Assembly: GCF_002797355.1 (NCBI RefSeq)
Contig: NZ_KZ454940.1
Location: 1-64,000 of the forward strand
Direction: 5' to 3'
Origin: Bacillus xiapuensis
GTDB lineage: Bacteria; Bacillota; Bacilli; Bacillales; Domibacillaceae
Length of the DNA: 64,000 nucleotides
Shown: piece by piece, positions 14,987-30,171 of the stretch
Layout: every line of letters begins with the position of its first letter
Numbering within the stretch: position 1 is the stretch's first letter
Program-made: the position numbers and the translations under genes
Notes under the pieces: model-generated
What the model saw: the letters and a program-made list of their open reading frames with translations, nothing else
What the model was told of the DNA's origin: nothing
The model's database searches: none

Positions 14987-15058
14987 AACTAACATTATTG
15001 CCAGGAAGTCTAAAAACCTTTTTTACGTTCAATTACAAAAAGTGGTGATGAATCCAAA
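14987..15058. repeat. Direct repeat copy 1, left side of the accessory island
   Basis: Shares about 75 nt, roughly 80% identical by eye, with 25078-25156 in the same orientation. The common core includes AACTAACATTATTGCCAG and GTGATGAATC. It may be a relic of an insertion sequence or an island boundary. Confidence 0.6.
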
Positions 15059-15291
15059 TAAGTAGAAAAACACATTATGCAAATTAAATGATAAGTAGAA
15101 ATAAACTATGAATACGAATTTTATCAGAAAAATGATATTTATTAATACGGAATTAAGATGGAATTAACGGTTATTACTGTTTCTTGAGCTTTCACGAACA
15201 AAACAAGAAATATTTTACATATCAATATATACTAAACCTGTACTAACACATATGGTACAAAATCAAATACTTTAATGGATGGTGACTCATG

Positions 15292-15675
15292 ATGAAGAAG
15301 AACAAGTTAGCAGTTTTAGGTATGGCTGTAGGTTTGTTAGCTTTTGGTGGGGCAGTACAAGCAGGAACAAGTTATTCTGGTTATAATACTACTGTTGGTA
15401 AATTTAACGGAAGTGGTTACACAGGTTACCAAACAAAAGCTGAATCTGGTAAATACGGTCATTTGAAATCAAAAAGCGTTGGCAGTAGCTATGTTGTAGA
15501 TGCGAGAATGACAGCAAGTAGTGGTACAGGGAGTTGGGTTAGAAATGTTAGTGATAATGACTCTCGTAATTTACCAAACTCTGTTAGTAAAGGAAAAAGC
15601 ACACGGGTTCAGTTCAGCAATGATTTAGATACACCTGTAAATGTTCAAGTAACTGGCTCATGGAAAAGTAATTAA
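15292..15675 (+). CDS. Small secreted protein, unknown function
   Basis: A 127-residue protein with a clear Sec signal peptide: MKKNK, a hydrophobic core and a likely cut after AVQA near residue 23. The mature part of about 104 residues is rich in Gly, Ser, Thr and Tyr, has no cysteine and ends GSWKSN. GGTGA lies 6 nt before the ATG at 15292; a second ATG 3 nt earlier is too close. It is convergent with an ABC transporter operon across a shared terminator. The arrangement resembles secreted-bacteriocin/immunity-transporter loci, but I do not recognise the family, and function is not assigned. Confidence 0.75.
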   Translation: MKKNKLAVLGMAVGLLAFGGAVQAGTSYSGYNTTVGKFNGSGYTGYQTKAESGKYGHLKSKSVGSSYVVDARMTASSGTGSWVRNVSDNDSRNLPNSVSKGKSTRVQFSNDLDTPVNVQVTGSWKSN

Positions 15676-15681
15676 TTAACG

Positions 15682-15729
15682 AAATCAAGAACGCTAATGG
15701 ATACTGAAAACAGCGTTCTTGATTTTTTG
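15682..15729. terminator. Shared terminator between the secreted protein gene and the ABC operon
   Basis: AAATCAAGAACGCT pairs with AGCGTTCTTGATTT, followed by T6 on the plus strand; the A-run on the other side makes it usable for the minus-strand operon too. Confidence 0.88.
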
Positions 15730-15730
15730 T

Positions 15731-16375
15731 TTATTTCAGATAAACGGGTTCCAGTTTATATCTATTGATGCGGAATACATGATCACAAAGGATATTAATA
15801 TCATCCTGATTATGACTCGTCATTAAAATTGTACGCCCTTCATTCTTAAATGATAATAATAGATTTCGAATTCTGTCTACACTTTCTACATCCAAAGCAT
15901 TAAAAGCCTCATCTAATATAAGAACCTGTTGATCTTCCATTATCGCCTGAGCAATAGCTAATTTTTGTTTCATTCCTAAAGAATAATCTTTAACTTTTTG
16001 CTTTGCCTGCGGTTGTAACCCTACCATTTCCATTGTTTCAGCAATCTTTTCATCACTTATTTCTCCTCTGATTAGCGCCAATTCTTTTAGGTTTTGAAAT
16101 CCGGTTTTATTTGCAATATAACCTGGACGATCTATAATAATACCAAAATTATCAGGGAACCTTTTGCTTTTTCCAACTTCTTCTCCTCTAACATAAATCG
16201 TACCGTTATCAGGGAATACGAAGCCACATATCATCTTGAATAATACAGATTTACCAGAACCGTTATGCCCCACAATTCCATATATTTTTCCTTTTTCAAT
16301 ATTTAAATCTACACCATCAAAAAGAGTTAGCCCTTTATATGTTTTACTTACATTTTTTAATGAAATAATAGACAT
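15731..16375 (-). CDS. ABC transporter ATP-binding protein
   Basis: A single ATPase domain of 214 residues. Walker A is GHNGSGKS (36-43), the signature is YSLGMKQK (near 131, the variant common in exporters), Walker B is QVLILDEAF (near 152-160) and the H-loop is TSHNQDD (near 190). It lies 13 bp after the large permease gene and is the last gene of the operon. GGGGTGA precedes the ATG. Probably powers export or self-protection with the neighbouring membrane proteins. Confidence 0.92.
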   Translation of the reverse strand: MSIISLKNVSKTYKGLTLFDGVDLNIEKGKIYGIVGHNGSGKSVLFKMICGFVFPDNGTIYVRGEEVGKSKRFPDNFGIIIDRPGYIANKTGFQNLKELALIRGEISDEKIAETMEMVGLQPQAKQKVKDYSLGMKQKLAIAQAIMEDQQVLILDEAFNALDVESVDRIRNLLLSFKNEGRTILMTSHNQDDINILCDHVFRINRYKLEPVYLK

Positions 16376-16388
16376 ATTTTCACCCCAC

Positions 16389-17915
16389 CTATATTTTTAA
16401 ACTTTGTTTGAATAAATAGTTAATTATAAAAAAAGTTAGAGCATTCATTATAATTAAAATATACGTTAGAGAATATGGCGAAAAATTAGTTAAATAAACA
16501 ATACTATTTAACCCCACTGGAATAATCCCTACTTTATTAATACCTGGTAACATTAATATCATCAGGAAACTAATTAGTAATACACCCTGTATTGATTCCT
16601 TGCTTATCCATGAAACAATAAACACAGCGAATATATATAAAACAATCTGTAAGAAACCATTAATAAAAAAATGGTAAATAATCTCATGCAAAGGGTTAGA
16701 GAGTATCGTCACATCAAAATTAGTATGCATTCCGAAACAACTAGCTATTATAAGAGCCAGTGCTATTAATGTAAAAAGAAATAAAATCACTACTATTAAT
16801 AATTTCCTCATCCAACTCCAAAACCACTTGTTCAAATTCTTATAACGAATAATTTTGTAGTATCCAAGACGATCAATTTCATTGCTTAAAAATAACTGAA
16901 CTAAATAAATAAAACCAAAGAATACAATTAAATAAAAGAAAAAAGGGACATAGGAAAAATTTTCTGCATTAGAGCCTCTAAAAGACATTACCCAAACATC
17001 CCAAATGGTTGATTCAGAAGGATTAAGTGAAGCAGCTGTTGAGATTATACCTGTTAAACACAACAGCAAGTAAATCACTATAGGAATATACGATTTTATG
17101 GATTGAGCATGTATTTTTTTATTAAGGTCTACAACTCTTAAATATAAAACACTAAATAAACCAAGCACTAGTAGAACAATGTAACTTGAAATAGGAGAAT
17201 TAAATGAATTAGCTGCTTTTGCAATTGAAAAATAAGTAGTTGGAGATAAAAAAAACATTTCCTTTGGTAATAATTTAAAACCTATAATACTTCCCAAAAA
17301 AATCATTACACTAATAAAAAGTATAAAATACTTACTTTTGGTCACCACATATACAGTTGCTAAAAATATATGCAGCAATGAAAGCGTTAAAATTAATAAA
17401 ATTAACTGCGCTAATAATACATATATTGGTACAGTAAAGGTTTTCACTAATTCATAAAGGGTATTAGTAATATGCTCAACCTCGCTAAGTGTGCTCCAGT
17501 GCCATGAGTACGGAAATCCAATCATCATAAACAGTGATACGAATACCCATAAAAACAATAAAGGAGTGCACTTCAACCAAAAATGTTTAAGAGAATAGTA
17601 TATCCATTTTTTGAACGAACCTAATCGAATTAAAATCTGGTAATCAAAATCTAACAAAATAAATCTTATTGAAAAAAACATCACGATCGGGATTATAAAA
17701 TAGACAATGAGGTACATATCGTTTAACAAACGTAAAGTAATGTCCCAGCCATTAAAAGACATACCCATTTCATAAGCTGCCTTGACTATCTCCTTTTTCA
17801 GCATAAAGCCATAAAAGTAAAAAACAACACCTATCGCTAACCATTTAATACCTATTAATTCTTCAAGATATTCTTTCATACGAAGTTTTCCCTGCTTCAT
17901 ACTCATATCATCCAT
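16389..17915 (-). CDS. Large multi-spanning membrane protein, ABC-type permease
   Basis: A 508-residue, very hydrophobic protein with about 12 predicted membrane segments, possibly two permease-like halves. It overlaps the broken permease gene by 13 bp and is followed by the ATPase gene, so it is most likely the membrane component of this transporter. No catalytic motif was recognised. The start is uncertain: ATG codons at 17915, 17906 and later are possible. Base composition is AT-rich compared with the yug block. Confidence 0.72.
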   Translation of the reverse strand: MDDMSMKQGKLRMKEYLEELIGIKWLAIGVVFYFYGFMLKKEIVKAAYEMGMSFNGWDITLRLLNDMYLIVYFIIPIVMFFSIRFILLDFDYQILIRLGSFKKWIYYSLKHFWLKCTPLLFLWVFVSLFMMIGFPYSWHWSTLSEVEHITNTLYELVKTFTVPIYVLLAQLILLILTLSLLHIFLATVYVVTKSKYFILFISVMIFLGSIIGFKLLPKEMFFLSPTTYFSIAKAANSFNSPISSYIVLLVLGLFSVLYLRVVDLNKKIHAQSIKSYIPIVIYLLLCLTGIISTAASLNPSESTIWDVWVMSFRGSNAENFSYVPFFFYLIVFFGFIYLVQLFLSNEIDRLGYYKIIRYKNLNKWFWSWMRKLLIVVILFLFTLIALALIIASCFGMHTNFDVTILSNPLHEIIYHFFINGFLQIVLYIFAVFIVSWISKESIQGVLLISFLMILMLPGINKVGIIPVGLNSIVYLTNFSPYSLTYILIIMNALTFFIINYLFKQSLKI

Positions 17916-18685
17916 TCTTTTCTGTTACGGATTATGAATACATAAAGACCTATTATAATAAAGAGCAAAAGTGAAAATGGCACCAGTACAGTCCATAACG
18001 GTTGTTCTATAATATTAAATGGAAAAATAGTACTTAAGGGTGAAAACCATGGTGTTGCAAATACACCTGTTATAAAATTGAAAATATGATAATAAAGAAA
18101 CGGAGCAGATAAAGCTATAAAAGGATTATCTACGACAAGTAGGAGCATAAATGCAATAGTTGAATAAACTAACGCATTTACGGAAACCCACAAGGAATAA
18201 ATAAGCCCATATGTCAGATCTCCATATGCCAAGAATTGTTAAAAAGTAACATTTGGAATAACTATATTCTCATCTATAGAAGAGTAAGAAATTATCCCTA
18301 ATTTCGGCTCAATGTACACCACAAAAACAAATGTAAGAAATATTAACAAAAATGTAACCAGCGCCGTTAAACAAGCATTTATGATACCTTTGCTGAGCAA
18401 ATAAATGTTTAACGGTATTCTAGTGCGAGTGTAAGGAATAAAGTTATTTCTTTGCTCTTGCAAAAAGGTTGGTAAATAAATGGTGATCACAATAGCGGGA
18501 AAGAGTAAAGAAATAATGGTTGACATCATCTCTTGGAATACTTCAATTGGATCAAAGAATTGGTATCCTTCTTTTATAGAATAAAATCTTATTGTTGGTA
18601 TAAGAATAAGAATAGCCAGCCATAATAATAAATTTTTCACTGTATATACTCTTTTTAATTCGACTAATAATTGATTACCTAGCAT
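17903..18685 (-). pseudogene. ABC-2-type permease split by an in-frame TAA
   Basis: Two hydrophobic stretches in the same frame (18685-18239 and 18238-17903) are separated only by TAA at 18239-18241, in the context NVTF-stop-QFLAYGD. Joined, they make one permease of about 260 residues with six membrane segments, a usual size for an ABC-2 subunit. The ATG at 18685 follows AAGGGG by 8 nt. A TTG three codons after the stop could restart translation and give a C-terminal half. The full-length protein is probably lost unless the stop is read through. Confidence 0.7.
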
Positions 18686-18891
18686 ACATTTCACCCCTTA
18701 GGCTTATTTATAGATTGAGAAACAAGTTGTTAATTCACCTGAAGAATGCAGCATTAACGTTGTGGATAAAAATTTATTTTTAGTTGTTTACTCTTCCTAC
18801 CTTTAAAGAGACCGTTGAAAAACTGTAAATATTGATTTCTAAATACAACACACAATAAGCAAAAGAACCATAAACTTTTTCAGCTGATCCT

Positions 18892-19668
18892 TTAATTAGA
18901 TGTTTTTTTAAATTTCCCCTTGTTTTTAATCCGAAATAATAAATAACCAACAATATTCAACAATAAAAGGTTTATTATCCAAATTAATTTTAATCCCTCT
19001 GCATGATATAATTGGATTAACCCCCAGATGGTAAATAAAACATAATAAATTGTAAAACCGATAGCAAATAGAAAGATACCAATTGTTCGAACATCTATAA
19101 CTTCCAGCGAGACAAAAGATTGATCTGTTTCATAGTACAATCCTCTTTTAAATAGCTCAGGTACCCAACGTTTATTGTCTTCATAAATATAATTAGGTTT
19201 CAAAAGACTCTTTTGCCTTGATTCTGTACTGTATAAAGAAGCTCTAAGAATAAATGGTTCATTGACAAACAAAAGATCTGTTGACTTTGAATTTACTGAT
19301 GGTAGTTCTTCTCCAATTTGATATCCTATATCAGCAAAATGAGCATCATGAATGTTTCCTAAATATAAAAGCAAACCAAACATACAACTGACGAATACTA
19401 AAAATGATACCCCTACCGTCAACAACCAATTCGCAAATGTTCTCTGTCGAATTTCCATCAATGAAATTAATTTTTCTGCCTGCTCAAGCCCGCCAAATCG
19501 TTCGACTGCCACTCTGAATGCATCATTTTCCGTATAACCATCGCTCATTAGCTCTTTTACAGATTCATTAAGATGAACACGAGTTTCTTCTTTTAATTCT
19601 TTTGTTTCTGGATGTTTTGAGTTTGCATGTTTATATAAGTTATCAACATATTCATCAACCCTCCTCAT
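18892..19668 (-). CDS. Permease-prefix/DUF1700-like membrane protein linked to PadR
   Basis: About 258 residues. The first 75 form a soluble helical domain (DEYVDNLYKHANSK...; ENDAFRVAVERFGG) of the type found next to PadR regulators. Three membrane segments follow near 83-107, 185-210 and 220-245, with an extracytoplasmic loop between the first two. It overlaps padR by 14 bp, so the two are one transcription unit. The start at 19668 follows GAGGGGG by 6 nt. Likely a partner or sensor for the PadR protein; the role is inferred from context. Confidence 0.7.
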   Translation of the reverse strand: MRRVDEYVDNLYKHANSKHPETKELKEETRVHLNESVKELMSDGYTENDAFRVAVERFGGLEQAEKLISLMEIRQRTFANWLLTVGVSFLVFVSCMFGLLLYLGNIHDAHFADIGYQIGEELPSVNSKSTDLLFVNEPFILRASLYSTESRQKSLLKPNYIYEDNKRWVPELFKRGLYYETDQSFVSLEVIDVRTIGIFLFAIGFTIYYVLFTIWGLIQLYHAEGLKLIWIINLLLLNIVGYLLFRIKNKGKFKKTSN

Positions 19669-20011
19669 TTCCATCCCCCTCACATGTATCCAAAAATGTG
19701 TCTATCAACTTTTTTACAAATTCCCATTCTTTGATTTTCAGCTTGAAGTTGCAACGCCCTTCATCAGTCATTTGATAATATTTTCTACGGGCTCCTGCTC
19801 CTTGTTCATCACTCCAATAGGAAGAAATCCATTCTTTCTTCTCCAACCTTTTTAAAGAAAGATACAGAGTACCTTCCTTCAATTCAAACGCCCCATTGCT
19901 GTTAATACGAACTACTTTTGCAATTTCATATCCATACATATCTTTTTTACTTAGGAGGGATAATATCAGTGTATCAATATGCCCCTTTAGTAATTCCTTA
20001 TCAACTTCCAA
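19655..20011 (-). CDS. PadR-family transcription regulator
   Basis: 118 residues with the PadR winged helix: LILSLLSKKDMYGYEIAKVV (helix-turn-helix region), ELKEGTLYLSLKRLEKKEWI and the wing RRKYYQMTDEG. GGAGGA precedes the ATG. It heads the minus-strand operon with the DUF1700-like gene and probably the ABC genes. PadR proteins usually repress their own operon until an effector is present. Confidence 0.92.
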   Translation of the reverse strand: MEVDKELLKGHIDTLILSLLSKKDMYGYEIAKVVRINSNGAFELKEGTLYLSLKRLEKKEWISSYWSDEQGAGARRKYYQMTDEGRCNFKLKIKEWEFVKKLIDTFLDTCEGDGNEEG

Positions 20012-20284
20012 TCATATTCCTCCAATAATGAATCACTGTGTAATAAATACTTTATATGTACATTTTAAATACAAGTACCTAATAATGCAAGGTTTTTATG
20101 TTGATTAACTATCATGATTTTCCAAAAGCTTTTATTATGCTTGTGTATTCAACGTTTTCTATAGTTTAGCACGCCTATTGATTAACCGAATTTATACAGA
20201 TCTTTCCCATCATGATCAAAATAATAATACAGAAATAAGATCATCTGACCCCACTATGGCAAGGGGAATATGTCTGTTAAAAGC

Positions 20285-20625
20285 ATGCACTAAAAAGACA
20301 CGGACGACAAGTTTGGCTTAGAAGAGGGACTTTAAAATCTCTTGTGACCATTTCTCATGCTTTTTCTGCCTTTCACTTTTTGGTCTCTTTCACCATTTGA
20401 AATAACCGCTTTTGAAAACTCCCAGAACTTTGCACGTCTTCTTCACTTGGTATGGATAGCAATGTTCTTGAATGAACTCATATTTTACCGAGGGCTTTTC
20501 ACAAAGTAGTGCATTGCTTTTTTAGTTTCCATTTTTAATACCTCTTCGAATGGCCTCTTGCCATATAGACACATTCCTTCATAATTGATCTATTTATGAT
20601 AACAATCTGTGTCTACTTATTAATC
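20285..20625 (-). mobile_element. Remnant of an IS3-family element (IS150-like), 5' part
   Basis: The minus strand reads KYEFIQEHCYPYQVKKTCKV and then LGVFKSGYFKW in one frame, the beginning of IS3-type OrfB, preceded by an orfA scrap and interrupted by stops. The outer end, GTAGACACAGATTGTTATC, is shared with the IS3 remnant near 26190. It fills most of the 20012-20747 gap; no intact gene is present there. Confidence 0.75.
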
Positions 20626-20653
20626 TCGGCAACATTAGTTGTCAACACTCAGC

Positions 20654-20683
20654 TACGATTATGACTAATATTTTAACGTTCAT
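20654..20683 (+). promoter_or_regulatory. Tandem LytTR (AgrA-type) binding sites upstream of agrB
   Basis: TACGATTAT (20654-20662) and AACGTTCAT (20675-20683) match the AgrA consensus (A/T)(A/C)(A/C)GTTN(A/G)(G/T) at 8/9 and 9/9 positions. Their starts are 21 bp apart, i.e. a 12-bp spacer, as in staphylococcal agr promoters. A weak -10 (AATAAT) follows at about 20707, consistent with activator dependence. Confidence 0.6.
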
Positions 20684-20747
20684 AATGTGATGCGCTGAAC
20701 TTCAAGAATAATTGTTAAACTACTTCAAAGAGAGGAAGTAGATTTAA

Positions 20748-21311
20748 ATGTCAACAATTGAATCATTTATTGTCAATATACTGATCAAACAAAAGAATTA
20801 CACACAGCTAGATCAAGCAAAAATACGATTCGGCGTTCGATTGATTTTTGCTGACTTATGTAAATTCTTGATTGTATATGGGGCCGCCTTTCTGCTTGAT
20901 TGTGTATTACCAACTTTTGTTACACATATAACCTTCTATACATTAAGGCAAAAATCATTTGGTTACCATTTTTCAAGTTCATTTAGTTGTATAGCTTGGA
21001 GCGTACTAGCGTTTCCTATTATGTCCGCCTGTTTAGCTGCTCTACCTTTACCATTATGGCTTGTTTGGAGTACCGGTATTTTCTCAGCAACCACTGTTTT
21101 TTTATATGCACCTGTTGGAACAGCCAAACAACCGATTATTAATGAAAAACACCGACTCTATTTAAGGAAACAAGCACACACCCGGTTGTTGACTACAGGT
21201 ATTATTACGTGTACTATACCCATATACATCCATAAATTCATAGTATTGGGTGTAGCGATACAAAGTTTAGCCTTACTTATTCAAAAGTTTAAAGGAGAGA
21301 AGTCATTATGA
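20748..21311 (+). CDS. agrB: AgrB-like peptide-processing membrane protease
   Basis: A 187-residue membrane protein that trims the AgrD precursor and forms its thiolactone ring. The family cysteine-protease pair is present as FGYHFSSSFSC, with His74 and Cys81, the same spacing as in staphylococcal AgrB. About five or six membrane segments follow, with the conserved TAKQPIINEKHR loop near 125-136. GAGGAAG lies 9 nt before the ATG. Its TGA overlaps the agrD ATG (ATGA), so the two are coupled. First gene of agrBDCA. Confidence 0.93.
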   Translation: MSTIESFIVNILIKQKNYTQLDQAKIRFGVRLIFADLCKFLIVYGAAFLLDCVLPTFVTHITFYTLRQKSFGYHFSSSFSCIAWSVLAFPIMSACLAALPLPLWLVWSTGIFSATTVFLYAPVGTAKQPIINEKHRLYLRKQAHTRLLTTGIITCTIPIYIHKFIVLGVAIQSLALLIQKFKGEKSL

Positions 21312-21487
21312 ATACCATGAGTAAACTATTACAATCAGCTAAAAGGGTTCTTCTTTTAAAATTATCAAATATTGCTTTGTTAGTAGGAAATTTTGCGGCG
21401 GTGAACTCCTGTACATTTTTCTTTCATGAAGAAGAAATACCTGAAGAACTTAAGAGGAGTCATCTATTTCTTACACATGAAGAGTAA
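21308..21487 (+). CDS. agrD: AgrD-like autoinducing-peptide precursor
   Basis: A 59-residue precursor. Residues 1-25 form an amphipathic leader (MNTMSKLLQSAKRVLLLKLS). The core is GNFAAVNSCTFFF (27-39), followed by the acidic recognition tail HEEEIPEELKR. This lines up with staphylococcal GNIAAYSTCDFIM-DEVEVPKEL. The expected signal is therefore a peptide ending CTFFF with a thiolactone between Cys35 and the Phe39 carboxylate, probably VNSCTFFF or NSCTFFF; the N-terminal cut is inferred. GGAGAG lies 9 nt upstream and the start overlaps the agrB stop. Confidence 0.92.
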   Translation: MNTMSKLLQSAKRVLLLKLSNIALLVGNFAAVNSCTFFFHEEEIPEELKRSHLFLTHEE

Positions 21488-21510
21488 TAAAGAAAGTGGG
21501 AATTAAATCG

Positions 21511-22803
21511 ATGAGTATCTCTATGTATACTGCTTTAATTGAATTTATCTCCATATTTCTTGGCCTAAGCTATACATTAAACATTCAATTCGATCTCCGA
21601 AAGATATTTTTTATGATAGTCGGTATTGTTTTACCAACTATTTTTGTATACATATGGATAGCCCATTGGTTGAGCATTCTTACTTTATTTTCTACAACCG
21701 CCGTATTATTTTATAGATTTTCAAACAATTATCGAGCATTACTAGACTTATGCATTCTCTTTATAGGCGGCATGTTAGCAGATCATCTAACACAACTTGT
21801 AAATAATGATCTATTTCACTTAGAAAACATTATATCTTTTTTCTCACATTCCTTACTTTTCCTTTTAATTTTCGTCATTTTTGTCTATTGTTACAAAAAG
21901 AGTATTGAAAAAATAGTGTCTCACTTAGATATCCCATTATACATGCAAGTACTTCTTTTCATTATCATTAGCACAACCATCTTTGTTCTTTACTTAAATA
22001 TTTTTTTCCAATCAAACCAAGATGAAATGGAGCTAGTGAAAATCAATTTAACGACTCAATTAAGCTATTTTTTATTAATGATTCTCTTGTTTAGTTTACT
22101 GTTATACAGTGTACAAAAAGAAAATCAAATTAAGCAACGTATAATAGAAATAGAACAATTTACGGCATATATGGAGACCCTCGAAAAAGTCAATCGAGAT
22201 ATGCAAAAGTTCCGTCATGATTATCGAAATATTTTATATACAATGAAAGGCTACCTTGATGATAATAATTTAGATGATCTAAAAGAATATTTTCGACAAC
22301 ATATTTTACAAACCGAAGCACATACATTATTTAAAACCAGAGTATTAGGCAACTTAGATCATTTACAATTAGTTAGCTTAAAAGGGTTATTAGCTACAAA
22401 AGCCCTTCAGGCAGATGAACAAGGCATCAAAATCAGTCTTGAAATACCTGAAGTCATTGATAATATTGATATGAACGTTATTGATTTAACAAGAATTATG
22501 GGTATTTTGATCGACAATGCCATTGAAGCAAACGAAACAGCATTCCAAGGAGAAATTAACATTGCCTTCTTTAAAACAAAATTAGATTCAACTATCATTA
22601 TTATTCGAAATACTCTGCAAGATGATTCAATTGATCTAGTGAATATATTCAAAGATTCATTCTCTACAAAGGGTAAATGTCGCGGTACGGGACTAGCCAA
22701 TATTAAAAATATTTTAGGGCGTTATCCACAGGTCCTTATGCATACGCGTATCGAACAGAATTGGTTTATTCAAGAAATAGAAATTCAGAGTAGGGGAAAT
22801 TGA
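21511..22803 (+). CDS. agrC: AgrC-like histidine kinase sensing the autoinducing peptide
   Basis: About 430 residues. An N-terminal sensor with six or seven membrane segments (residues 1-200) is followed by a coiled linker and a GHKL kinase domain. The phosphoacceptor histidine is in FRHDYRNIL (about residue 236), the N-box is GILIDNAIEANE (near 330) and the glycine loop is GTGLANIK. This is the HPK10 arrangement typical of AgrC/ComD. The start may instead be the GTG at 21496. One nucleotide separates it from agrA. Confidence 0.93.
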   Translation: MSISMYTALIEFISIFLGLSYTLNIQFDLRKIFFMIVGIVLPTIFVYIWIAHWLSILTLFSTTAVLFYRFSNNYRALLDLCILFIGGMLADHLTQLVNNDLFHLENIISFFSHSLLFLLIFVIFVYCYKKSIEKIVSHLDIPLYMQVLLFIIISTTIFVLYLNIFFQSNQDEMELVKINLTTQLSYFLLMILLFSLLLYSVQKENQIKQRIIEIEQFTAYMETLEKVNRDMQKFRHDYRNILYTMKGYLDDNNLDDLKEYFRQHILQTEAHTLFKTRVLGNLDHLQLVSLKGLLATKALQADEQGIKISLEIPEVIDNIDMNVIDLTRIMGILIDNAIEANETAFQGEINIAFFKTKLDSTIIIIRNTLQDDSIDLVNIFKDSFSTKGKCRGTGLANIKNILGRYPQVLMHTRIEQNWFIQEIEIQSRGN

Positions 22804-22804
22804 C

Positions 22805-23557
22805 ATGAAAGTGATCATTTGCGAGGACGATGCTACACAACTTGAATATATTTATTCAAAGCTACAAAAATATGCGCTGATACAGTATCCGAGTATAGAG
22901 TTCACCTTAGCAACTTCTAGTCCTGAAGACATACTTACTTATATAGAACACGATCGGGAAGATTGTTATTTTTTGGATATTGAATTAGGAAGCTCTTTAA
23001 CAGGTCTAGAATTAGCTGGTAAAATTAAGGATCGTGATCCTCAAGCAAGTATTATATTTGTAACTACACATGCAGAAATGCTACAATTAACTTTTACGTA
23101 TAAACTGGCCGCACTCGACTTCATAGTAAAAAGAGAGCAAACGCAGCTTACACATCAACTAATCACAGCGTTAGAAGTTGCTTATCAAAAATATAAACAA
23201 TTAGGACATGTAGATGAAGGACACTACTTCCAGTTAAAAATCGGAGAGCTTATTAAGAACATTCCCTATGAAGAAATTTATTTTTTTGCTACCTCCAGCC
23301 AAGTTCACAAGATAGAATTACATACTAAAAACGGACGTTATGAATTTTATGGAAAATTAAAGGCCCTTGAGAGCCTAGACAGCCGATTTTATCGTTGCCA
23401 TAAGAGCTATATTATCAACTTACAGCATATTCGAGAAATTAATAAAAAAGATAGAACACTAACAATGACAAATACAGAAACCTGTTACATTTCTTTTCGA
23501 GCTTTGCGAGGATTACAAATCAAAATGACAGAATGGACATCTTCAAATAGAGTATAG
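22805..23557 (+). CDS. agrA: AgrA-like LytTR response regulator
   Basis: 250 residues. The receiver domain (1-125) has the acidic pair in ICEDD, the phosphoacceptor Asp58 in YFLDIELG and the conserved lysine in DFIVKREQ. A C-terminal LytTR DNA-binding domain begins near 140 (KIGELIKNIPYEEIYFFATS) and includes RFYRCHKSYIINL. AGGGGA precedes the ATG. It should activate the agr promoter through the tandem sites upstream of agrB. No second agr-type promoter transcribing a regulatory RNA was seen nearby. Confidence 0.94.
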   Translation: MKVIICEDDATQLEYIYSKLQKYALIQYPSIEFTLATSSPEDILTYIEHDREDCYFLDIELGSSLTGLELAGKIKDRDPQASIIFVTTHAEMLQLTFTYKLAALDFIVKREQTQLTHQLITALEVAYQKYKQLGHVDEGHYFQLKIGELIKNIPYEEIYFFATSSQVHKIELHTKNGRYEFYGKLKALESLDSRFYRCHKSYIINLQHIREINKKDRTLTMTNTETCYISFRALRGLQIKMTEWTSSNRV

Positions 23558-23652
23558 AATAACGTTGTGACGCTAATGTTTTTGGAATCGCTTTAAGTCT
23601 ATATCACCTATGGACTATGTATATAAAATCTCATCGACAAACCTAAAAGTTT

Positions 23653-24355
23653 AATCGAGCAGGAGGAGGTGATGAACCTCTGACCTCTCACACCACCTTC
23701 CGTACGGTTCTCCATATACGGCAGTTCAGATTCAATTGGACGCAATTGAGTGTAACGGACATATAGACTTATTGGCCCTTGATGATACCAATAGGTGTTA
23801 TCAAGAGTTTTGTGTAGGACTGGTCTGCGCGCGATTCGCCAATACCCTTTTGTGCCTTTATCTGCTCTCCCCCTCTGAAAGTCCCCCATGTATTCACCAC
23901 ATCCTCCATTTCAGTAGGTTCCAATAGGAATTGTATGCTTCATCTTAGATAAAAAACGCCTAGTATCCGTTCTTCTTCATCTGTTCAGTCCTTTCCTGTC
24001 TTCTCGAGTAGACAGATACTATGACCTCGGCTGACTTCTGATGATTCAGCTGTCCATCGCTGAACAGGTTACCAAGTATACTTGACGTGTTCATCAGATC
24101 TCTCTGGGTAAAAATGCACTCTTTCTCTCCATGTCCCCACTGTCACCTTTGACAGTAAGCGCTTTGTTTTACTCGGCAAACTCACTTCATGACAGCCAGC
24201 CTTCTATGTAGTTCGTGTTCCTTGGGGCAGAGATTTGCCACCGATTTCCTTCAGATTCCGGGTCACCACAGACACTCTTGTCATCAGCTAACCCTTACTA
24301 CTGTCTTCGAGGATCAGGACTCTCCCCCTAAAAATTGCACCCACGCAAAGCACAC
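23653..24355 (-). mobile_element. Group II intron remnant with internally deleted intron protein
   Basis: On the minus strand the 5' end reads GTGTGCTTTGCGTGGGTGC, followed by a structured region of about 400 nt resembling group II intron domain I-IV RNA. The 3' end has a domain V-like stretch (GCCGTATATGGAGAACCGTA, then GGTGGTGTGAGAGG) and a domain VI hairpin (GAGGTTCATCACCTCCTCCTGCTCGAT). Between them only the C-terminus of the reverse transcriptase/maturase remains (KGYWRIARRPVLHKTLDN, about 23740-23889). At about 700 nt versus roughly 2 kb for an intact element, it cannot move by itself. It begins 7 nt after a terminator hairpin, the insertion preference of class C introns. Confidence 0.72.
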
Positions 24356-24361
24356 TTAAAT

Positions 24362-24387
24362 AAAAACCAGTCCACAGGCTGGTTTTA
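24362..24387 (-). terminator. Terminator of the helicase remnant
   Basis: On the minus strand AAACCAG and CTGGTTT flank CCTGTGGA and are followed by TTATTT, right after the helicase stop and right before the intron. Confidence 0.75.
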
Positions 24388-24388
24388 C

Positions 24389-24600
24389 TCATCTTCTATG
24401 GTTATTTCTTTTACTAAAAGGACGTTTGGCTCGATGGTCAACGATCGGCCGCTCCGTCTTCCCCTTGCTCGTCCAGTTCACCCGATACGGTGAACGTAGC
24501 TTTCGACATCTTAGGGGATATCGTGGTTAAATACGTGCGTCACTCCTTCCACATCCAATCCACGAGCTGCAACATCTGTCGCTGCCCGCAAATAAAGCTT
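24389..24600 (-). pseudogene. C-terminal scrap of a DEAD-box RNA helicase
   Basis: The minus strand reads [20 protein letters not shown] then DIP-stop-DVESYVHRIG-stop-TGRA, which is helicase motifs V and VI ([19 protein letters not shown]) with two nonsense mutations. After a frame change it ends with a basic tail HRAKRPFSKRNNHRR and a stop at 24389. The N-terminal half is missing and an ISL3 fragment abuts it at about 24600-24640. Confidence 0.8.
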
Positions 24601-24639
24601 GCAATCGCGGATATGCGTTTTATTTGGCACATTATACCA

Positions 24640-24960
24640 AAAGGATTCCGTGGAAGAACGAACCAATCCAAGCCCATAGTCATAAGTAAAAGTAAATCCA
24701 CAACACATGCCACGCTGGTGAGGCACGGCAAGTTCAATCCAAAGCGTACCAAGATGCCAAGCATAACCGTGACGAAAACGGCGAGTTTTCGTGTCATGAC
24801 GATGTGTTTTCCCAAAACAAATCGGACATAAAATACATTGCGCTGGGGCAGAGAAACGAAAAATAGTTGGTTCTTCCTCAGAAGGCAAAGCAATTGTAAA
24901 AAGTTGGTAACCAGAACATCATTTTGATAAACTTAGAGGAAGAAGCGAAAACTCCTATCA
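24640..24960 (-). mobile_element. ISL3-family transposase fragment, copy 1
   Basis: The minus strand encodes a zinc-finger-like N-terminus ([18 protein letters not shown], then [20 protein letters not shown] and [13 protein letters not shown]) typical of ISL3 transposases. It is cut off after about 85 residues by fusion to the helicase scrap. An imperfect hairpin with AAAACTCC/GGGAGTTTT lies near 24950-24996. Confidence 0.7.
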
Positions 24961-25077
24961 TGTTTTAACTAGTCAAAAATTACGATAGGGGAGTTTTTGC
25001 TTTTTTATAGTGATTCAAGTCAAATTATTCAGATTTTTATAGTCAACGCCAAGTTACGGTGATGAGCCTTGTTTCGG

Positions 25078-25156
25078 TAACTAACATTATTGCCAGAAAG
25101 TCTTGAATGTTTTCCTTTTTTGCGTTATTTCACAAAAAGTGATGATGAATCAAATA
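25078..25156. repeat. Direct repeat copy 2, right part of the accessory island
   Basis: Partner of 14987-15058: GTAACTAACATTATTGCCAG, then AAGTCT, a CTTTTTT(A/G)CGTT block, ACAAAAAGT and GATGATGAATC in the same order and orientation. The spacing between copies is about 10.1 kb. Confidence 0.6.
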
Positions 25157-25262
25157 AAAAACCTTGAAAGACATTTAGCAAATCAAGGTAATCGAATTCA
25201 TTCAAACTATTTATATATCTTAACTGCGCTCTTTATGAAAACCTCTATAATAAAAAATCCAA

Positions 25263-25613
25263 TTAGCTGTTACTATCTCTTTCTTCTATGAATTCCAAAA
25301 ACGAATCTTGCAGTTCTCCTTCCGTATCAATAGAATCGAGAAGTAATTTAGGTTCTAATGAACAATCTTTTAAAGTCGAACTTCCATCAATTACTCCTAG
25401 CATGTTTGAAATAGTATCAATCATAGTTTGTTCAATTATCTTCATTAATGTATCTTTATTTTCGTCAGTTAAACTATCGTAAAAATCAATAGCTTTTTTC
25501 CAATAATCATCTGTCTTAGAAGTAACATTCGTTGTTCCATACAAGTCTTTGTATATTTGAAGGTTCTCTTTAATGATAGACTCATAAAGTGATTTAACAA
25601 AAATATCATTCAT
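25263..25613 (-). CDS. Hypothetical acidic protein, possible immunity protein
   Basis: A 116-residue, strongly acidic, helical protein with no signal peptide or metal motif; not recognised. It starts 1 nt after the stop of a truncated upstream gene, so the two once formed one unit. A small acidic protein directly after the C-terminus of a larger gene is the usual layout of polymorphic toxin and immunity pairs; that role is inference only. AATGAGGAAATAAA before the ATG contains a modest ribosome site (GAGGAAA). Confidence 0.55.
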   Translation of the reverse strand: MNDIFVKSLYESIIKENLQIYKDLYGTTNVTSKTDDYWKKAIDFYDSLTDENKDTLMKIIEQTMIDTISNMLGVIDGSSTLKDCSLEPKLLLDSIDTEGELQDSFLEFIEERDSNS

Positions 25614-25614
25614 T

Positions 25615-25747
25615 TTATTTCCTCATTTCTGGATACATTTTTTTGTTTAGTTCAATAAGTTCTTTTAAAGCAGAATTCGGTATGTCATCATAGACTCTTC
25701 TAAGTTCCCTAATATCTCTTACCAATAACCGTCTAGGATTATTGATA
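25615..25747 (-). pseudogene. C-terminal fragment of an unknown gene (possible toxin), cut by IS3
   Basis: The minus strand carries about 43 codons ending RELRRVYDDIPNSALKELIE, then LNKKMYPEMRK and TAA at 25615. The open frame runs straight into the IS3 remnant, so the 5' part has been lost. It looks like the C-terminal domain tail of a larger protein, but the family is not recognised with certainty. Confidence 0.5.
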
Positions 25748-25751
25748 CTAC

Positions 25752-26190
25752 GTCAAGAAAATAGACACAGAATTTTCTACCGCGCATTCGTTTGGAATTG
25801 TAAAAGAACTCAATGTACTCAAACAGCGATTTCTTCACCTCCTCTCTCGTTTTAAACTTCGTTTGATAAACTAGCTCACGCTTAAGAATACCGTGAAAGG
25901 ACTCAATACAAGTAGGATCGTAACCGTTCCCTTTGCGGCTCATGCTGCTTATCATTTTGTACGGTTTTAATAGTTTCCGATACTTCCGCGAGGCGTATTT
26001 AATATCTCGGTTTGAGTGAGGAATAACGCCTTTTTCTGGCTGTTGACCATACTTTTTGCCCCAGCCATGTAAAGGCATTGGCGTTCACGCCAACTTCCCA
26101 AGCTACTTGAGCAATGGACTTTTGGTTTTCACGAATACACTTTATCGTTTCCATTTTAGATAATCTATTTATGATAACAATCTGTGTCTC
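25752..26190 (-). mobile_element. Internally deleted IS3-family element (IS150-like)
   Basis: From the right end the minus strand has the outer sequence GAGACACAGATTGTTATC, an OrfA helix-turn-helix scrap (IRENQKSIAQVAWEVGVNAN), then directly the C-terminal part of the OrfB DDE domain (HSNRDIKYASRKYRKLLKPY, SMSRKGNGYDPTCIESFHGI). The terminal glutamate region (ESFHGILKREL) is still readable. The other end near 25760 carries AATAGACACAGAATT, an imperfect inverted partner of the first end. Most of orfA and half of orfB are missing. Confidence 0.78.
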
Positions 26191-26194
26191 CTTT

Positions 26195-26510
26195 TTAGTC
26201 TTGCACCAGAAATATCGTATTCTCGTGGCAAATCCGACAAAACGCGACCGTGATGCCAACACACAATTTCACGACGAAAACAATCTGTGGTAGAACGTAT
26301 GAATCCAAGATCATAGTCAAAAGTACAAGGTAAAACCGTAACACGTGCAACACTGGCGAAGCACATCAAGTTCAATCAAAGCGTGTCAAGATGCCAAGAC
26401 AGCGTGCTTTCCAAAAATAAGAGACAGAGACGCAATAAACAGCTGACTCTTCCTCAGAAGGTAAAGCAACTGTAAAAAAAGATAGTAATGGCTACATGAT
26501 GTTGATAAGC
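26195..26510 (-). mobile_element. ISL3-family transposase fragment, copy 2
   Basis: Same element as 24640-24960 but more degenerate: the minus strand reads YDLGFIRSTTDCFRREIVCW, HHGRVLSDLPREYDI, with frameshifts. The upstream sequence (AACATGATGTTGATAAGCTTAGAGG-like) is shared with copy 1 near 24920-24945. Confidence 0.6.
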
Positions 26511-26615
26511 TTAGAGGACAAAAAGAAACGCATGTAACTTTAAAAGCTTTTTGCGTTTTCGAACGAAGATCCCGTTCGCATAGAAGTATGAAAGATGGGG
26601 TTCGTCTATTGAATA

Positions 26616-26642
26616 AGAGGGAAGTGATAATCACTCCCCTCT
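26616..26642 (-). terminator. Probable terminator of the que operon
   Basis: AGAGGGGAGTGAT and ATCACTTCCCTCT pair on the minus strand 57 bp after the queE stop; the T-run (TTATTC) is weak. Confidence 0.55.
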
Positions 26643-26698
26643 ACATTTGACACTGAACCGGATTTTTCGTTTTGAATTCAAATATTCAAACGATGCCC

Positions 26699-27424
26699 TT
26701 ACACCCCCTTTTTGTTTCCCCATACAAAGGTATGAAGCTGAGGGAGAATGCGGACATTTCTCCAGTCTTTATCTGGCATGGTTTGTTCAATCAGCCAGTT
26801 GTACTTTTCCACAAGATGGGGCAAAAGCACCGAGCCATCCATTTCCTCAAGACGGTCATTTCCCGTTTGCAAGAAAAAGGCGGCATTCGGATAGAGCTGA
26901 TGCACCTTTTTGGCAAAGATAAGATCCTCCTTATTAAACACAACCACTTTCAAGCTGAACTCCCGGCCGCTCTCTTCCAAGCGCTGCACAATGTCTGTAA
27001 GCTTATTCAGGTCCGTTTCCATACCGGAGCTCGGCGGTTTTGGGGATATCGTCAATTCATCGATGCGATCAAACCAGTCTTGCCAGCGGCTTCCCTGTGT
27101 CTCAAGCGCAATCTTGATTCCTTCTTGCCGCAGCTTGTCAACCAATGCGGCCAACTGCGGAAGCAGCGCCGGATTCCCCCCCGAGATGGTCACATGGTCA
27201 AACGTTTCTCCGCCTATTTTGAACAGTTCTTCCCAAATGTCTTCAGCAGACAGCAGACGAATCTCTTCCTTGGCAGAACCGTCCCAAGTAAAAGCTGAAT
27301 CGCACCACGCACAGCTGTAATCGCAGCCGGCAGTCCGAACAAACATCGTCTTGCGCCCGGCGACCATCCCTTCTCCTTGAATGGTCGGTCCAAATATTTC
27401 GAGTACAGGAATCTTGCGGATCAT
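26699..27424 (-). CDS. queE: 7-carboxy-7-deazaguanine synthase QueE
   Basis: A radical SAM enzyme that rearranges 6-carboxytetrahydropterin to 7-carboxy-7-deazaguanine on the path to preQ0 and queuosine. The 241 residues have the substrate loop GPTIQGEGMVAGRKTMFVR at about 12-30 and the cluster motif CDYSCAWC (CX3CX2C) at about 34-41. SGGNPAL and SPKPPSSG follow. The ATG overlaps the queD stop by 4 bp. Third gene of queC-queD-queE; queF does not follow. Confidence 0.95.
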   Translation of the reverse strand: MIRKIPVLEIFGPTIQGEGMVAGRKTMFVRTAGCDYSCAWCDSAFTWDGSAKEEIRLLSAEDIWEELFKIGGETFDHVTISGGNPALLPQLAALVDKLRQEGIKIALETQGSRWQDWFDRIDELTISPKPPSSGMETDLNKLTDIVQRLEESGREFSLKVVVFNKEDLIFAKKVHQLYPNAAFFLQTGNDRLEEMDGSVLLPHLVEKYNWLIEQTMPDKDWRNVRILPQLHTFVWGNKKGV

Positions 27425-27861
27425 TGAAAATCATCCTCCCGCGGCCGGTACACGACATAGCTTGTTGGCGTCTCCCGCAAAAAGATTTGTATACAGCGCG
27501 GCTTGTTTTCAAGCTGATCTAACTGCTCCTGCATAATTTCCCACATTGTCTTGGCGACAACCTCTGTTGTCGGAAACCGATCAGGATCTTCTTCGTTAAA
27601 TAACGAATCATGATTGAGCACAGTATGATCAAAGCGCTTATGAATCAAATTTTTTATATGCTGAAAGTTCACTAAAAAGCCCAATTCATTCAATTCATTG
27701 CCGACGACCGTTACATTGACATAATACGTATGTCCATGCAAGCGGCGGCAAGCTCCGGCGTCTTCATGGGGCACATAATGAGCCGCCGCAAATTGGAAAT
27801 CCTTGTTCAATTCATAGCGATAAGAATGGGGAGGCGCCGGATATATTTGCTGCATCATCAT
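27421..27861 (-). CDS. queD: 6-carboxytetrahydropterin synthase QueD
   Basis: Converts dihydroneopterin triphosphate to 6-carboxytetrahydropterin. 146 residues. The zinc-binding histidines are in FAAAHYVP and [10 protein letters not shown], with the catalytic cysteine in [19 protein letters not shown] and the glutamate in FLRETPTS near the C-terminus complete the site. Starts within the queC stop (ATGA overlap); any of three successive ATGs could serve. Confidence 0.95.
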
Positions 27862-28517
27862 TTTTGTGCCTCCTTCTTAGCCAAATATTGATCAAGTCCC
27901 CGCTGGCGGAGCTTGCAGGCCGGACATTCGCCGCAGCCGCTTCCTTTAATGCCGTTATAGCAAGTCAATGTGCGCTCACGGACATAATCAAACGCACCAA
28001 GCTGGTCAGACAGCTCCCACGTTTCTGCTTTATCCAGCCACATCAGCGGCGTATGAATCACAAAGGTATAATCCATGGATAAGTTTAATGTCACATTTAA
28101 GGATTTAATAAACACATCGCGGCAGTCCGGATATCCGCTGAAATCTGTTTCACAGACTCCAGTAATCAGGTGCCTTGCCCCGTGCTGCTTAGCAAGCACA
28201 GCCGCAAACGATAAAAACAGCAAGTTGCGCCCTTCTACAAATGTCGATGGCAGCTCTCCGTCTTTCTCGGTAATTTCTATGTCCGTCCGCGTCAGCGCAT
28301 TCGGCGCTAGCTGATTGAGAAGCGACATATCTAACACATGGTGCGCAACACCTAAATCCTTGGCAATCTCAGCCGCGCATTGCAGCTCCAGCTGGTGGCG
28401 CTGACCGTAATCAAACGTCACGGCGATCACTTCGCCGAAGCGCTGTTTCGCCCAAAACAAACAAGTCGTACTGTCCTGCCCTCCGCTAAACACAACCACT
28501 GCTTTTTCTTTTTTCAT
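27858..28517 (-). CDS. queC: 7-cyano-7-deazaguanine (preQ0) synthase QueC
   Basis: ATP-dependent conversion of 7-carboxy-7-deazaguanine to preQ0. The P-loop motif is [12 protein letters not shown] near the N-terminus. The C-terminal zinc site is in [28 protein letters not shown] before the ATG at 28517 decides the start, giving 219 residues; the longer frame would extend into the riboswitch leader. First gene of the operon, transcribed behind the preQ1 riboswitch. Confidence 0.96.
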
Positions 28518-28598
28518 TATTCCTCTTCCTTTCTTCTTGAAAGAAAAAGATTCATGAACTGTAGCTCTAAAGAAATTGTCCGTTTTATTAGACAACAG

Positions 28599-28670
28599 AA
28601 AAAAACCGTCTGATGCTAGACTGGTTTTTCTCTTAGTTTTTTATAGAGGGAGTTCGCGAACCTCTCCTGC
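28599..28670 (-). promoter_or_regulatory. preQ1-I riboswitch with terminator
   Basis: On the minus strand AGAGGTTCGCGAACTCCC is followed by TCTATAAAAAACTAAG, the compact class I preQ1 aptamer whose A-rich tail docks into the loop. A terminator ACCAGTCT-AGC-ATC-AGACGGT plus T7 follows at 28599-28629. It lies about 80 nt before queC, so preQ1 should stop transcription of queCDE. An extended -10 (TGGTATAGT) sits just upstream near 28710. Confidence 0.93.
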
Positions 28671-28771
28671 GTTAACCGCAGATTTTCTTTCTTTAGTTCT
28701 TGTACACTATACCATAATTGCCGAATTGAAAACACTAAAAAAGGTTAGCAGCGAACTGTTAACCTTCCGCA

Positions 28772-28969
28772 TCATTCATCTATCTTATACTTGCCTTCTA
28801 GCTCTTTTGCTTTTTCCGCTTCCTTTTTAGAAATTTTTCTTATAAATAAAAAGAACAGAACAGCCGCTGTCATAAAAATAAACATTGAAATCGCCGCAGG
28901 GATATATTCGGATTTATCTTCTGGAAAATATAAATAGAGCATGTTTAGAACCAGTGCAGGCAGCATCAT
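28772..28969 (-). CDS. Small membrane protein, unknown
   Basis: 65 residues starting MMLPALVLN at 28969, where AAAGGAG lies 6 nt upstream. It holds a first hydrophobic stretch near 3-14, a strong membrane helix at about 27-48 (PAAISMFIFMTAAVLFFLFI) and a charged tail KISKKEAEKAKELEGKYKID. Not recognised. Stands alone between the que operon and ppiB. Confidence 0.6.
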   Translation of the reverse strand: MMLPALVLNMLYLYFPEDKSEYIPAAISMFIFMTAAVLFFLFIRKISKKEAEKAKELEGKYKIDE

Positions 28970-29327
28970 TGAATCTCCTTTCCAAAGCTGATCATCAAAC
29001 AGATTCATCATCCATAGATAGCTAGCAGCCATTCATCCCTCATTCAGCTGTTGGTTTCCGGCACAGCAACAGCTAAAGATGGGGATTACTGGACAAAGAT
29101 ACAATCTCCTGCTGTCATGGACAAAGCCTTTAAGCTGCGAATGAAAGGGGTTTTCTGTCTCTTTTTCTAGTATAACCCGTTTCCAATCTAAAACCAACCA
29201 AATGAAATGAAGGCTGCCCGAAAAGTACAGAAGCTAAAACTCAAGCATGCTGTTCAGTCAACATTCTTAGGTGTTCCATTCGGCTGCTTAATGGCCGGAA
29301 TAAGTCTTTTTTGACAGATCATTAAAA

Positions 29328-29356
29328 TGAAAACAGCCGCCAAGGCGGCTGTTTTG
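29328..29356 (-). terminator. Terminator of ppiB
   Basis: AAAACAGCCGCC-TT-GGCGGCTGTTTT, a perfect stem with flanking A/T, 18 bp after the stop. The rest of 28970-29373 shows no gene. Confidence 0.9.
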
Positions 29357-29373
29357 GCAACAATGCTTCTGCT

Positions 29374-29964
29374 TTATTCCTGTACCGTAATGGTTTCAAT
29401 CTTGATATCTTCCTGCGGCTTATCTTGCGCACCTGTTGGCGCATTAGCGATGGCATCGACAATCTCTAAGCCTTCAATGACGTGGCCAAAGACGGTATGA
29501 CGGAAATCCAGCCACGGTGTGCCGCCATTTTCCATGTAGAAATCAGTTACTTCTTGCGGATAGCCCGCCTGTTCCATCTGCTCTTTAAAGCCTGGGTCCA
29601 TCTGGCTGTTCTGCACAATAAAGAATTGGCTTCCATTTGTGTTCGGCCCGGCGTTCGCCATGGATAACGCCCCGCGGAAGTTAAAAAGCTCGCGGGAGAA
29701 CTCATCTTCAAACGGCTCGCCGTAAATGCTTTCTCCCCCCATGCCTGTTCCTTGAGGATCTCCGCCTTGGATCATAAAGTCTTTAATGACCCGGTGAAAA
29801 ATCAAGCCATCATAATAACCGTTTTTGCTGTGAGTAATGAAGTTTTCTACTGCCTTCGGCGCATGCTCAGGGAAAAGTTTGATCTTGATCTCTCCCATAG
29901 TTGTTTGCATGACAACGACTTTTTCGTTGTTCTTCACTTCTGTGGTCAATTGAGGATAATTCAT
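29374..29964 (-). CDS. ppiB: Cyclophilin-type peptidyl-prolyl isomerase
   Basis: Catalyses cis-trans isomerisation of X-Pro bonds. 196 residues, longer than the roughly 143-residue B. subtilis PpiB, because of an insertion around [20 protein letters not shown]. Family residues are present: [15 protein letters not shown] (active-site arginine), [19 protein letters not shown] and [10 protein letters not shown]. There is no signal peptide, so it is cytoplasmic. AAGGAGAG precedes the ATG. Confidence 0.93.
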
Positions 29965-30171
29965 TTTTCGCTCTCCTTCTTGATTATGATTATGTATGAT
30001 CTTTCCCTTGAAAAGAAAGCTCCGGCAGCGGCGAGCGTCCCTTCTCTTTCCGCTTTTCTTACTTTAACTTATTTCCTTTGAAAAAGCATCTCCCGCTATT
30101 TAAGATGACGTACAATTCCCGCTTTATCCCATAGAGGAACAAAAGTTTACTTGGAATACTTCAGCCCCTAT

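Follow-up and report, generated by a model that had tools for sequence, protein, structure and literature searches.

Among described agr quorum-sensing systems, those of Staphylococcus aureus and Listeria offer the closest points of reference for the locus reported here. In S. aureus, the binding site of AgrA consists of two direct repeats, with a promoter-proximal centre near −60 (available part of PMC4227749). For Listeria, the active form and the tail of the agr peptide are debated (available part of PMC11297923). According to Wuster and Babu, as cited in the accessible portion of PMC4916163, agr is generally inherited vertically, with Clostridium acetobutylicum as the only proposed case of transfer. 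Here, we describe an agrBDCA operon in a 64,000-nucleotide stretch of Bacillus xiapuensis DNA (contig NZ_KZ454940.1, positions 1 to 64,000; hereafter, the window), which lies on a 921-kb contig (C2) of a 3.26-Mb genome in three contigs (G000). We propose that the operon very probably is a functional agr-type peptide quorum-sensing system, horizontally acquired from a sister-species lineage, with a signal built on the ring CTFFF.

The operon spans positions 20748 to 23557, from the first base of the agrB ATG to the last base of the agrA stop codon in the list of open reading frames, and consists of four adjacent genes on one strand:

20748 to 21311, plus strand: agrB, membrane endopeptidase/cyclase of 187 amino acids (Pfam AgrB, E = 2.4e−28, 99 bits, cut-off 23).
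21308 to 21487, plus strand: agrD, signal precursor of 59 amino acids with the core CTFFF at residues 35 to 39 (TIGR04223, E = 1.9e−10).
21496 to 22803, plus strand: agrC, sensor histidine kinase, listed with a GTG start (GHKL domain, 61 bits, E = 8.6e−17).
22805 to 23557, plus strand: agrA, LytTR response regulator of 250 amino acids (LytTR domain, 82 bits, E = 4.9e−23; receiver domain, 52 bits, E = 7.8e−14).

Each gene has a family-level match among Pfam and NCBIfam profiles, and four such matches in the canonical order agrB-agrD-agrC-agrA are not due to chance. The complete system proposed in the initial annotation is therefore borne out, exact coordinates included, and its AgrB is the single match to the Pfam AgrB model in the whole genome. 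The genes had also been described as tightly packed and overlapping, which holds for agrB and agrD (an overlap of 4 nucleotides [nt]), while the other junctions only adjoin, with gaps of 8 nt between agrD and agrC (counted from the GTG start) and 1 nt between agrC and agrA. For agrC, the ATG at 21511 (430 amino acids) is a likelier start than the listed GTG because of the start position of its homolog in G002, a draft genome of the same genus in about 120 contigs. The precursor was presented as easily missed and as having only 59 residues; the first remark holds only in part, as agrD is picked up by standard models (TIGR04223, 40.6 bits, cut-off 19; Pfam AgrD, E = 2e−5, 25 bits, cut-off 22.7), and the second does not make it short, given that 16 aligned AgrD proteins span 39 to 73 amino acids.

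Conserved residues point in the same direction. Among 14 aligned AgrB proteins (our own and those from the 13 of 20 fetched loci that had an AgrB frame, Rummeliibacillus suwonensis included), residues H60, R67, G72, H74, C81, F89, and P122 are invariant. His74 and Cys81 form a His-x6-Cys pair, seven positions apart, with the same spacing as in S. aureus AgrB, where the catalytic pair is His77/Cys84. The kinase part of AgrC aligns with the S. aureus AgrC structure 6e52 (E = 9.9e−44), the FRHDY motif being common to both; for its membrane part, the evidence is the NCBIfam AgrC match, which begins at residue 15. AgrA matches the LytTR domain of S. aureus AgrA (3bs1, E = 1e−19) and ComE (4cbv, E = 7.8e−25). 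By family and structure matches together, the operon thus encodes an AgrC membrane kinase and a LytTR-type AgrA. The structure search found no solved relative of AgrB, its sole match (E = 0.018) being an esterase. Against the NCBIfam models, AgrC reaches 242 bits (staphylococcal AgrC, E = 1.2e−71) and AgrA 208 bits (E = 1.6e−61), below the respective equivalog cut-offs of 500 and 400.

The predicted signal lies in the AgrD segment ...GNFAAVNSCTFFFHEEEIPEEL..., where the signal cysteine is Cys35 by residue count, as the initial annotation had it. The corresponding segments are ...GGLAVVNICTFFFHEEEIPKEL... in R. suwonensis, whose 16S rRNA is 92% identical to that of our genome over 1273 nt, and ...SSINACSFFFHEEEIPEEL... 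in G002, where the ring is CSFFF. We found that the core CTFFF and the following HEEEIP are unchanged in R. suwonensis while AgrD as a whole has diverged (33 of 56 residues identical to those of the window), which strengthens what we consider the best reading, a complete agrBDCA-type system with a CTFFF ring. The layout of the TIGR04223 family and of the 16-AgrD alignment, in which a leader is followed by a cysteine (or serine), four further residues, and an acidic tail with a proline, is present in the window, and both the ring and the acidic proline-containing tail are kept in R. suwonensis and G002. In the same alignment, the residues just before the ring cysteine differ among relatives (NS, NI, and NA). 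A genome of the same order (L034) has the ring CTFFL, and other relatives have CTSLF, CTTIF, CTTLF, CTALF, and CTLFM.

The claim that the signal is unusually aromatic is only weakly supported. An order-wide search found TIGR04223 in 24 of 397 genomes, and six of the 24 AgrD proteins have three consecutive aromatic residues in the ring. Besides the window, these are G002, with CSFFF, and four proteins with CFWFL or CFWFA, so that five of the other 23 share the trait; the ring is therefore aromatic and no outlier. The Listeria ring, CFMFV, likewise has two phenylalanines (available part of PMC4916163). As a side observation, locus L098 (genome G490) has an AgrD-like GRTFFFHEEEI, with arginine at the position of the ring cysteine. 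Genes for AgrC and AgrA lie next to it, and the stretch fetched there yielded no agrB frame.

Upstream of agrB, we identified a candidate AgrA-binding box and promoter:

20655 to 20685, plus strand: predicted AgrA (LytTR) site, two 10-bp direct repeats with starts 21 bp apart.
20716 to 20721, plus strand: predicted −10 hexamer TAAACT, 30 nt past the box; the distance is also 30 nt in G002 (TACACT).

The box, spotted by eye when the upstream regions of the window and R. suwonensis were compared, reads ACGATTATGA-N11-ACGTTCATAA in the former and ACGATTATGA-N11-ACGTTTATGA in the latter, and such a box precedes agr in each of the three genomes with this agr type for which we inspected the upstream region. 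Its centre, at 20670, lies about 58 nt before a transcription start assumed to be 7 nt after the −10 hexamer, close to the −60 position at S. aureus AgrA promoters (PMC4227749). A search of the own genome with the exact pattern, allowing up to 3 mismatches, gave a single match, as did one with a control pattern. With a relaxed pattern, the agr site is the only own-genome match with fewer than 3 mismatches; three perfect copies occur in R. suwonensis and one 1-mismatch copy in G002, just before its truncated agrB. At up to 3 mismatches, relaxed searches of six genomes gave totals at chance level (for example, 18 versus 21 control matches in G000 and 45 versus 70 in G405, the R. suwonensis genome), and we relied only on the 0-mismatch copies and the 1-mismatch copy at the G002 agr locus. 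Single 1-mismatch matches also occur in G004 (C1:903053) and G001 (C43:192034), genomes where agr was not found, and one mismatch alone is therefore no proof of a box. In a set of 41 genomes, R. suwonensis plus 40 relatives, matches with fewer than 2 mismatches were confined to R. suwonensis; a single 2-mismatch match occurs in each of five other genomes, versus 15 control matches.

In a half-site matrix, the window box scores 27.2 bits versus 12.2 for the next pair in the window and maxima of 12.9 to 19.7 in five shuffles, a margin that is partly by construction, as the training set includes this box. When 15 upstream regions were scanned by self-identity for repeats 20 to 22 bp apart, the window pair did not rank in the top four of its region, since the two halves are not alike; the same scan returned the box pair in R. 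suwonensis (L088, 10/11 identical) and G002 (9/11) and a related pair in L090 (8/11). It also returned ACAGTTA pairs 21 bp apart (9 to 10 of 11 identical) in L105, L106, and L107, a motif that is the staphylococcal AgrA repeat and that served as a positive control; the rest of the 15 regions yielded no trusted pair. A pair of the form ACAGTT-N12-14-ACAGTT has no match in the window. No convincing second, divergent repeat pair was found upstream of agr: the minus-strand pairs match at best at 9 and 7 of 10 positions and are absent from the top window pairs listed in the matrix ranking. There is therefore no sign of a P3-type promoter, RNAIII is not among the four Rfam matches at E ≤ 1 in window positions 15000 to 30000, and a divergent P3/RNAIII arrangement was not found in the window.

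The agr locus of G002 is closely related and incomplete. The frame before its agrD (L011, 8734 to 9018, minus strand) covers only about the last 62 AgrB residues (79% identical), and because about the first 125 agrB codons are missing from the draft assembly, His74 and Cys81 are absent. Its AgrC (428 amino acids) and AgrA (250 amino acids) frames are open and the box is kept; the leader of its AgrD has an in-frame gap of seven residues. The window AgrB used as a query gave no other match in G002. We suggest that G002 should not make its own signal and could hear one, a possible receiver-only locus: since it keeps the receiver, the regulator, and the box and should not process its own precursor, it may respond to the peptide of a window-like species.

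Comparison with G002 also bears on the origin of the operon. Synonymous divergence (dS) between the window and G002 is 0.33 for agrC, 0.32 for agrA, 0.36 for agrD, and 0.41 for the remaining piece of agrB, with ratios of nonsynonymous to synonymous divergence (dN/dS) of 0.22, 0.19, 0.45, and 0.31, respectively. Elsewhere, a coat-like gene has dS of 2.08 and queE is saturated (proportion of synonymous differences, 0.79), so that, with these two genes as the comparison, a slow-evolving block is a conceivable alternative. The DNA is 88% identical in agr versus 75% in the queE region and 72% (by BLAST) in an MMPL transporter gene. Between G002 and G004, the MMPL gene itself has dS of 0.31, similar to the agr value between the window and G002. 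The G002 locus is bounded by a DEAD-box helicase gene, which directly adjoins agrA, and by the MMPL gene, with agr and two ABC-transporter frames in between. The DNA past agrA in the window contains the following:

23988 to 24272, minus strand: group II intron domain matches (RF01998, 70.4 bits; RF02001, 83.4 bits; both above gathering score), between agrA and the helicase fragment.
24347 to 24611, minus strand: fragment of a DEAD-box helicase gene in two pieces, just past agrA.

The helicase pieces are 88.5 to 88.7% identical at the nucleotide level to G004, 84% to G002, and about 79 to 82% to G001 and G003, and the fragment probably came in together with the operon. Because agr has dS of about 0.32 versus about 2 or saturation elsewhere, and because the fragment is of the helicase gene that adjoins agr in G002, the simplest reading is that a segment comprising agr and the end of the helicase gene was acquired horizontally from the G002/G004 (sister-species) lineage. 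The helicase-MMPL interval holds other frames and no agr in G004, G003, and G001; in our genome, the coat and MMPL genes lie side by side at C2:171-174 kb, without helicase or agr. With different frames in four same-genus genomes (L138, L139, L140, and L011), this interval is a variable site. A plasmid-borne agr was also considered, and the operon had no match in the plasmid collection (distant mode). A literature search with partial coverage and few subscription papers found, by title, no publication on agr transfer between species or on agr in Rummeliibacillus or Kurthia.

We next consider how widespread such operons are. An AgrB protein search (E ≤ 0.001) found matches in 4 of 61 genomes, our own included, two of them weak. 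Within the family, TIGR04223 occurs in 4 of 24 genomes, two of which carry serine-type precursors of another kind. Of 121 genomes comprising R. suwonensis and relatives, 23 have AgrC-like proteins (E ≤ 1e−30), and a scan of GTDB contigs with exact short peptides of the window AgrB recovered R. suwonensis only. These counts indicate that agr is common but patchy. Further AgrC-like frames in G003 and G004, and another in G002 besides that of its agr locus, share only 27 to 28% identity and were not counted as this agr.

Taken as observations, the genes, conserved residues, conserved box, and divergence contrast lead us to infer processing, a tail length, signaling, and autoregulation as follows. 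AgrB would cut AgrD after Phe39, join the new C-terminus to the side chain of Cys35, and help to export the cyclic peptide, whose CTFFF ring would carry a short tail at its N-terminus (probably 0 to 4 residues of ...AVNS). The calculated m/z values of [M+H]+ are 646.269 for CTFFF, 733.301 for SCTFFF, 847.344 for NSCTFFF, and 946.413 for VNSCTFFF. AgrC would bind this peptide outside the cell and then phosphorylate AgrA, which would bind the tandem repeats at 20655 to 20685 and thereby raise transcription of the operon. It is doubtful, though conceivable, that the active signal is instead a homodetic cyclopeptide, into which a tail-less CTFFF thiolactone would rearrange; such a rearrangement has been reported in Listeria and in a Ruminiclostridium. 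For the Listeria thiolactone without a tail, the half-life of this reaction is 1.3 min at pH 7 and 37°C (available part of PMC11297923), and the variable residues before the ring cysteine place a fixed tail under no obvious constraint. However, among signals with solved structures, rings of five residues with tails of 0 to 7 residues predominate, so that a tail is common (as far as the accessible portion of PMC4916163 goes).

Several observations weigh against a functional, acquired agr system. The own genome has no second AgrA-box target with fewer than 3 mismatches, this agr type is patchy within the genus (two of five genomes have it, only one of them in intact form), and AgrC and AgrA, given their scores, are agr-type proteins outside the staphylococcal equivalog. 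Because the operon is patchy and sits among gene remnants, it may be in a decaying or silent state. That an operon intact by sequence fell silent or began to decay after transfer, at a remnant-rich site and with no regulon in its host, would fit the single box, the adjoining group II intron and helicase fragments, the loss of most of agrB in G002, and the three of five genus members without this agr. We nevertheless consider it unlikely, given that all four frames are open, the box and the −10 spacing are kept, and dN/dS is low, even if this low ratio mostly reflects the period before and around the transfer. Less probable still is that the peptide mainly interferes with neighbors or is overheard by them rather than reporting the density of its producer. 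The identical or nearly identical rings of relatives and the AgrC and AgrA retained in G002 without a complete agrB are consistent with this explanation, but the producer's own operon encodes AgrC and AgrA. We therefore favor a functional operon acquired by transfer, an ordinary-looking agr of an already known type that is probably working.

The box has further copies in R. suwonensis. To the left of each of the boxes L058, L064, and L070, at 21 nt, lies a less perfect pair in the opposite orientation, a pattern chosen after the sequences had been viewed, and exactly 30 nt beyond these leftward pairs are TACAAT (L058), TAGAAT (L064, beside agr), and TACAAT (L070). The three regions are related (75 to 84% identity over 91 to 159 nt), so the equal spacing is partly due to descent. 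At none of the three boxes, that of agr included, is a rightward −10 hexamer at 30 nt obvious, which speaks against a uniform promoter model. Beside the R. suwonensis agr, the leftward promoter would lead into some 0.6 kb with no listed frame longer than 50 amino acids, and Rfam searches of L002, L058, and L070 found no fitting family, the sole match being StyR-143, far below its gathering score. We tentatively suggest, as one joint and rather improbable proposal, that the Rummeliibacillus box marks three divergent promoter regions, the agr-side one possibly driving an RNAIII-like RNA outside staphylococci, and that agr with a CTFF(F/L) ring travels as a cassette, together with its own AgrA box, from one Bacillales lineage to another, its gain and loss leaving natural listeners. 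Of the boxes away from agr, one lies about 0.5 kb before secDF and one reads leftward to a 199-amino-acid frame.

Other elements were observed in the genome. A PreQ1 riboswitch (RF00522, 53.8 bits) lies at window positions 28627 to 28670 (minus strand), about 1.2 kb upstream of a queE-like gene (26699 to 27424, minus strand). Partial 16S rRNA matches occur at C2:813044-814221 and C2:818830-820006, beside nine full-length ones in the genome (23 of 50 candidates scored). On contig C3 (28.8 kb), positions 7117 to 9859 of L053 are 72% identical to a pair encoding a ThiF-family adenylyltransferase and a nucleotidyltransferase on a Priestia filamentosa plasmid, the one match, covering 14% of the query, in a search with 20,000 of the 28,779 bases. 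By its resemblance to such loci, this stretch is perhaps a defense locus like the cyclic oligonucleotide-based antiphage signaling system.

The operon yields a concrete predicted peptide and a predicted AgrA site outside the well-studied genera, and it would be a clearly marked example of an agr operon that was transferred horizontally and whose flank can still be traced. If G002 does hear the signal of the window organism, the two would offer a natural test of producers versus listeners.

Compared with S. aureus agrBDCA, the operon has the same gene order, the His/Cys pair in AgrB, a predicted five-residue cysteine ring, the same AgrC and AgrA domains, and predicted AgrA direct repeats before agrB. 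It differs in its ring, CTFFF, in the lack of a detected divergent P3/RNAIII, in AgrC and AgrA scores below the equivalog cut-offs, and in its repeat, ACGWTYATRA, where that of S. aureus is ACAGTTA. Listeria agr also has a five-residue ring with aromatic residues, which differs in sequence, CFMFV (available part of PMC4916163). The R. suwonensis agr (L002) shares the gene order, an identical CTFFF, and an AgrA box of the same type, with 54% identity in AgrB, 58% in AgrC, and 66% in AgrA; that genome has three perfect boxes, each with a predicted divergent second pair, whereas the window has one box and no such pair was found. The G002 agr (L011) differs in lacking about the first 125 codons of agrB, in the seven-residue gap in the AgrD leader, in its CSFFF ring, and in its chromosomal site; it shares 86% identity in AgrC and 89% in AgrA and keeps both the box and the −10 hexamer.

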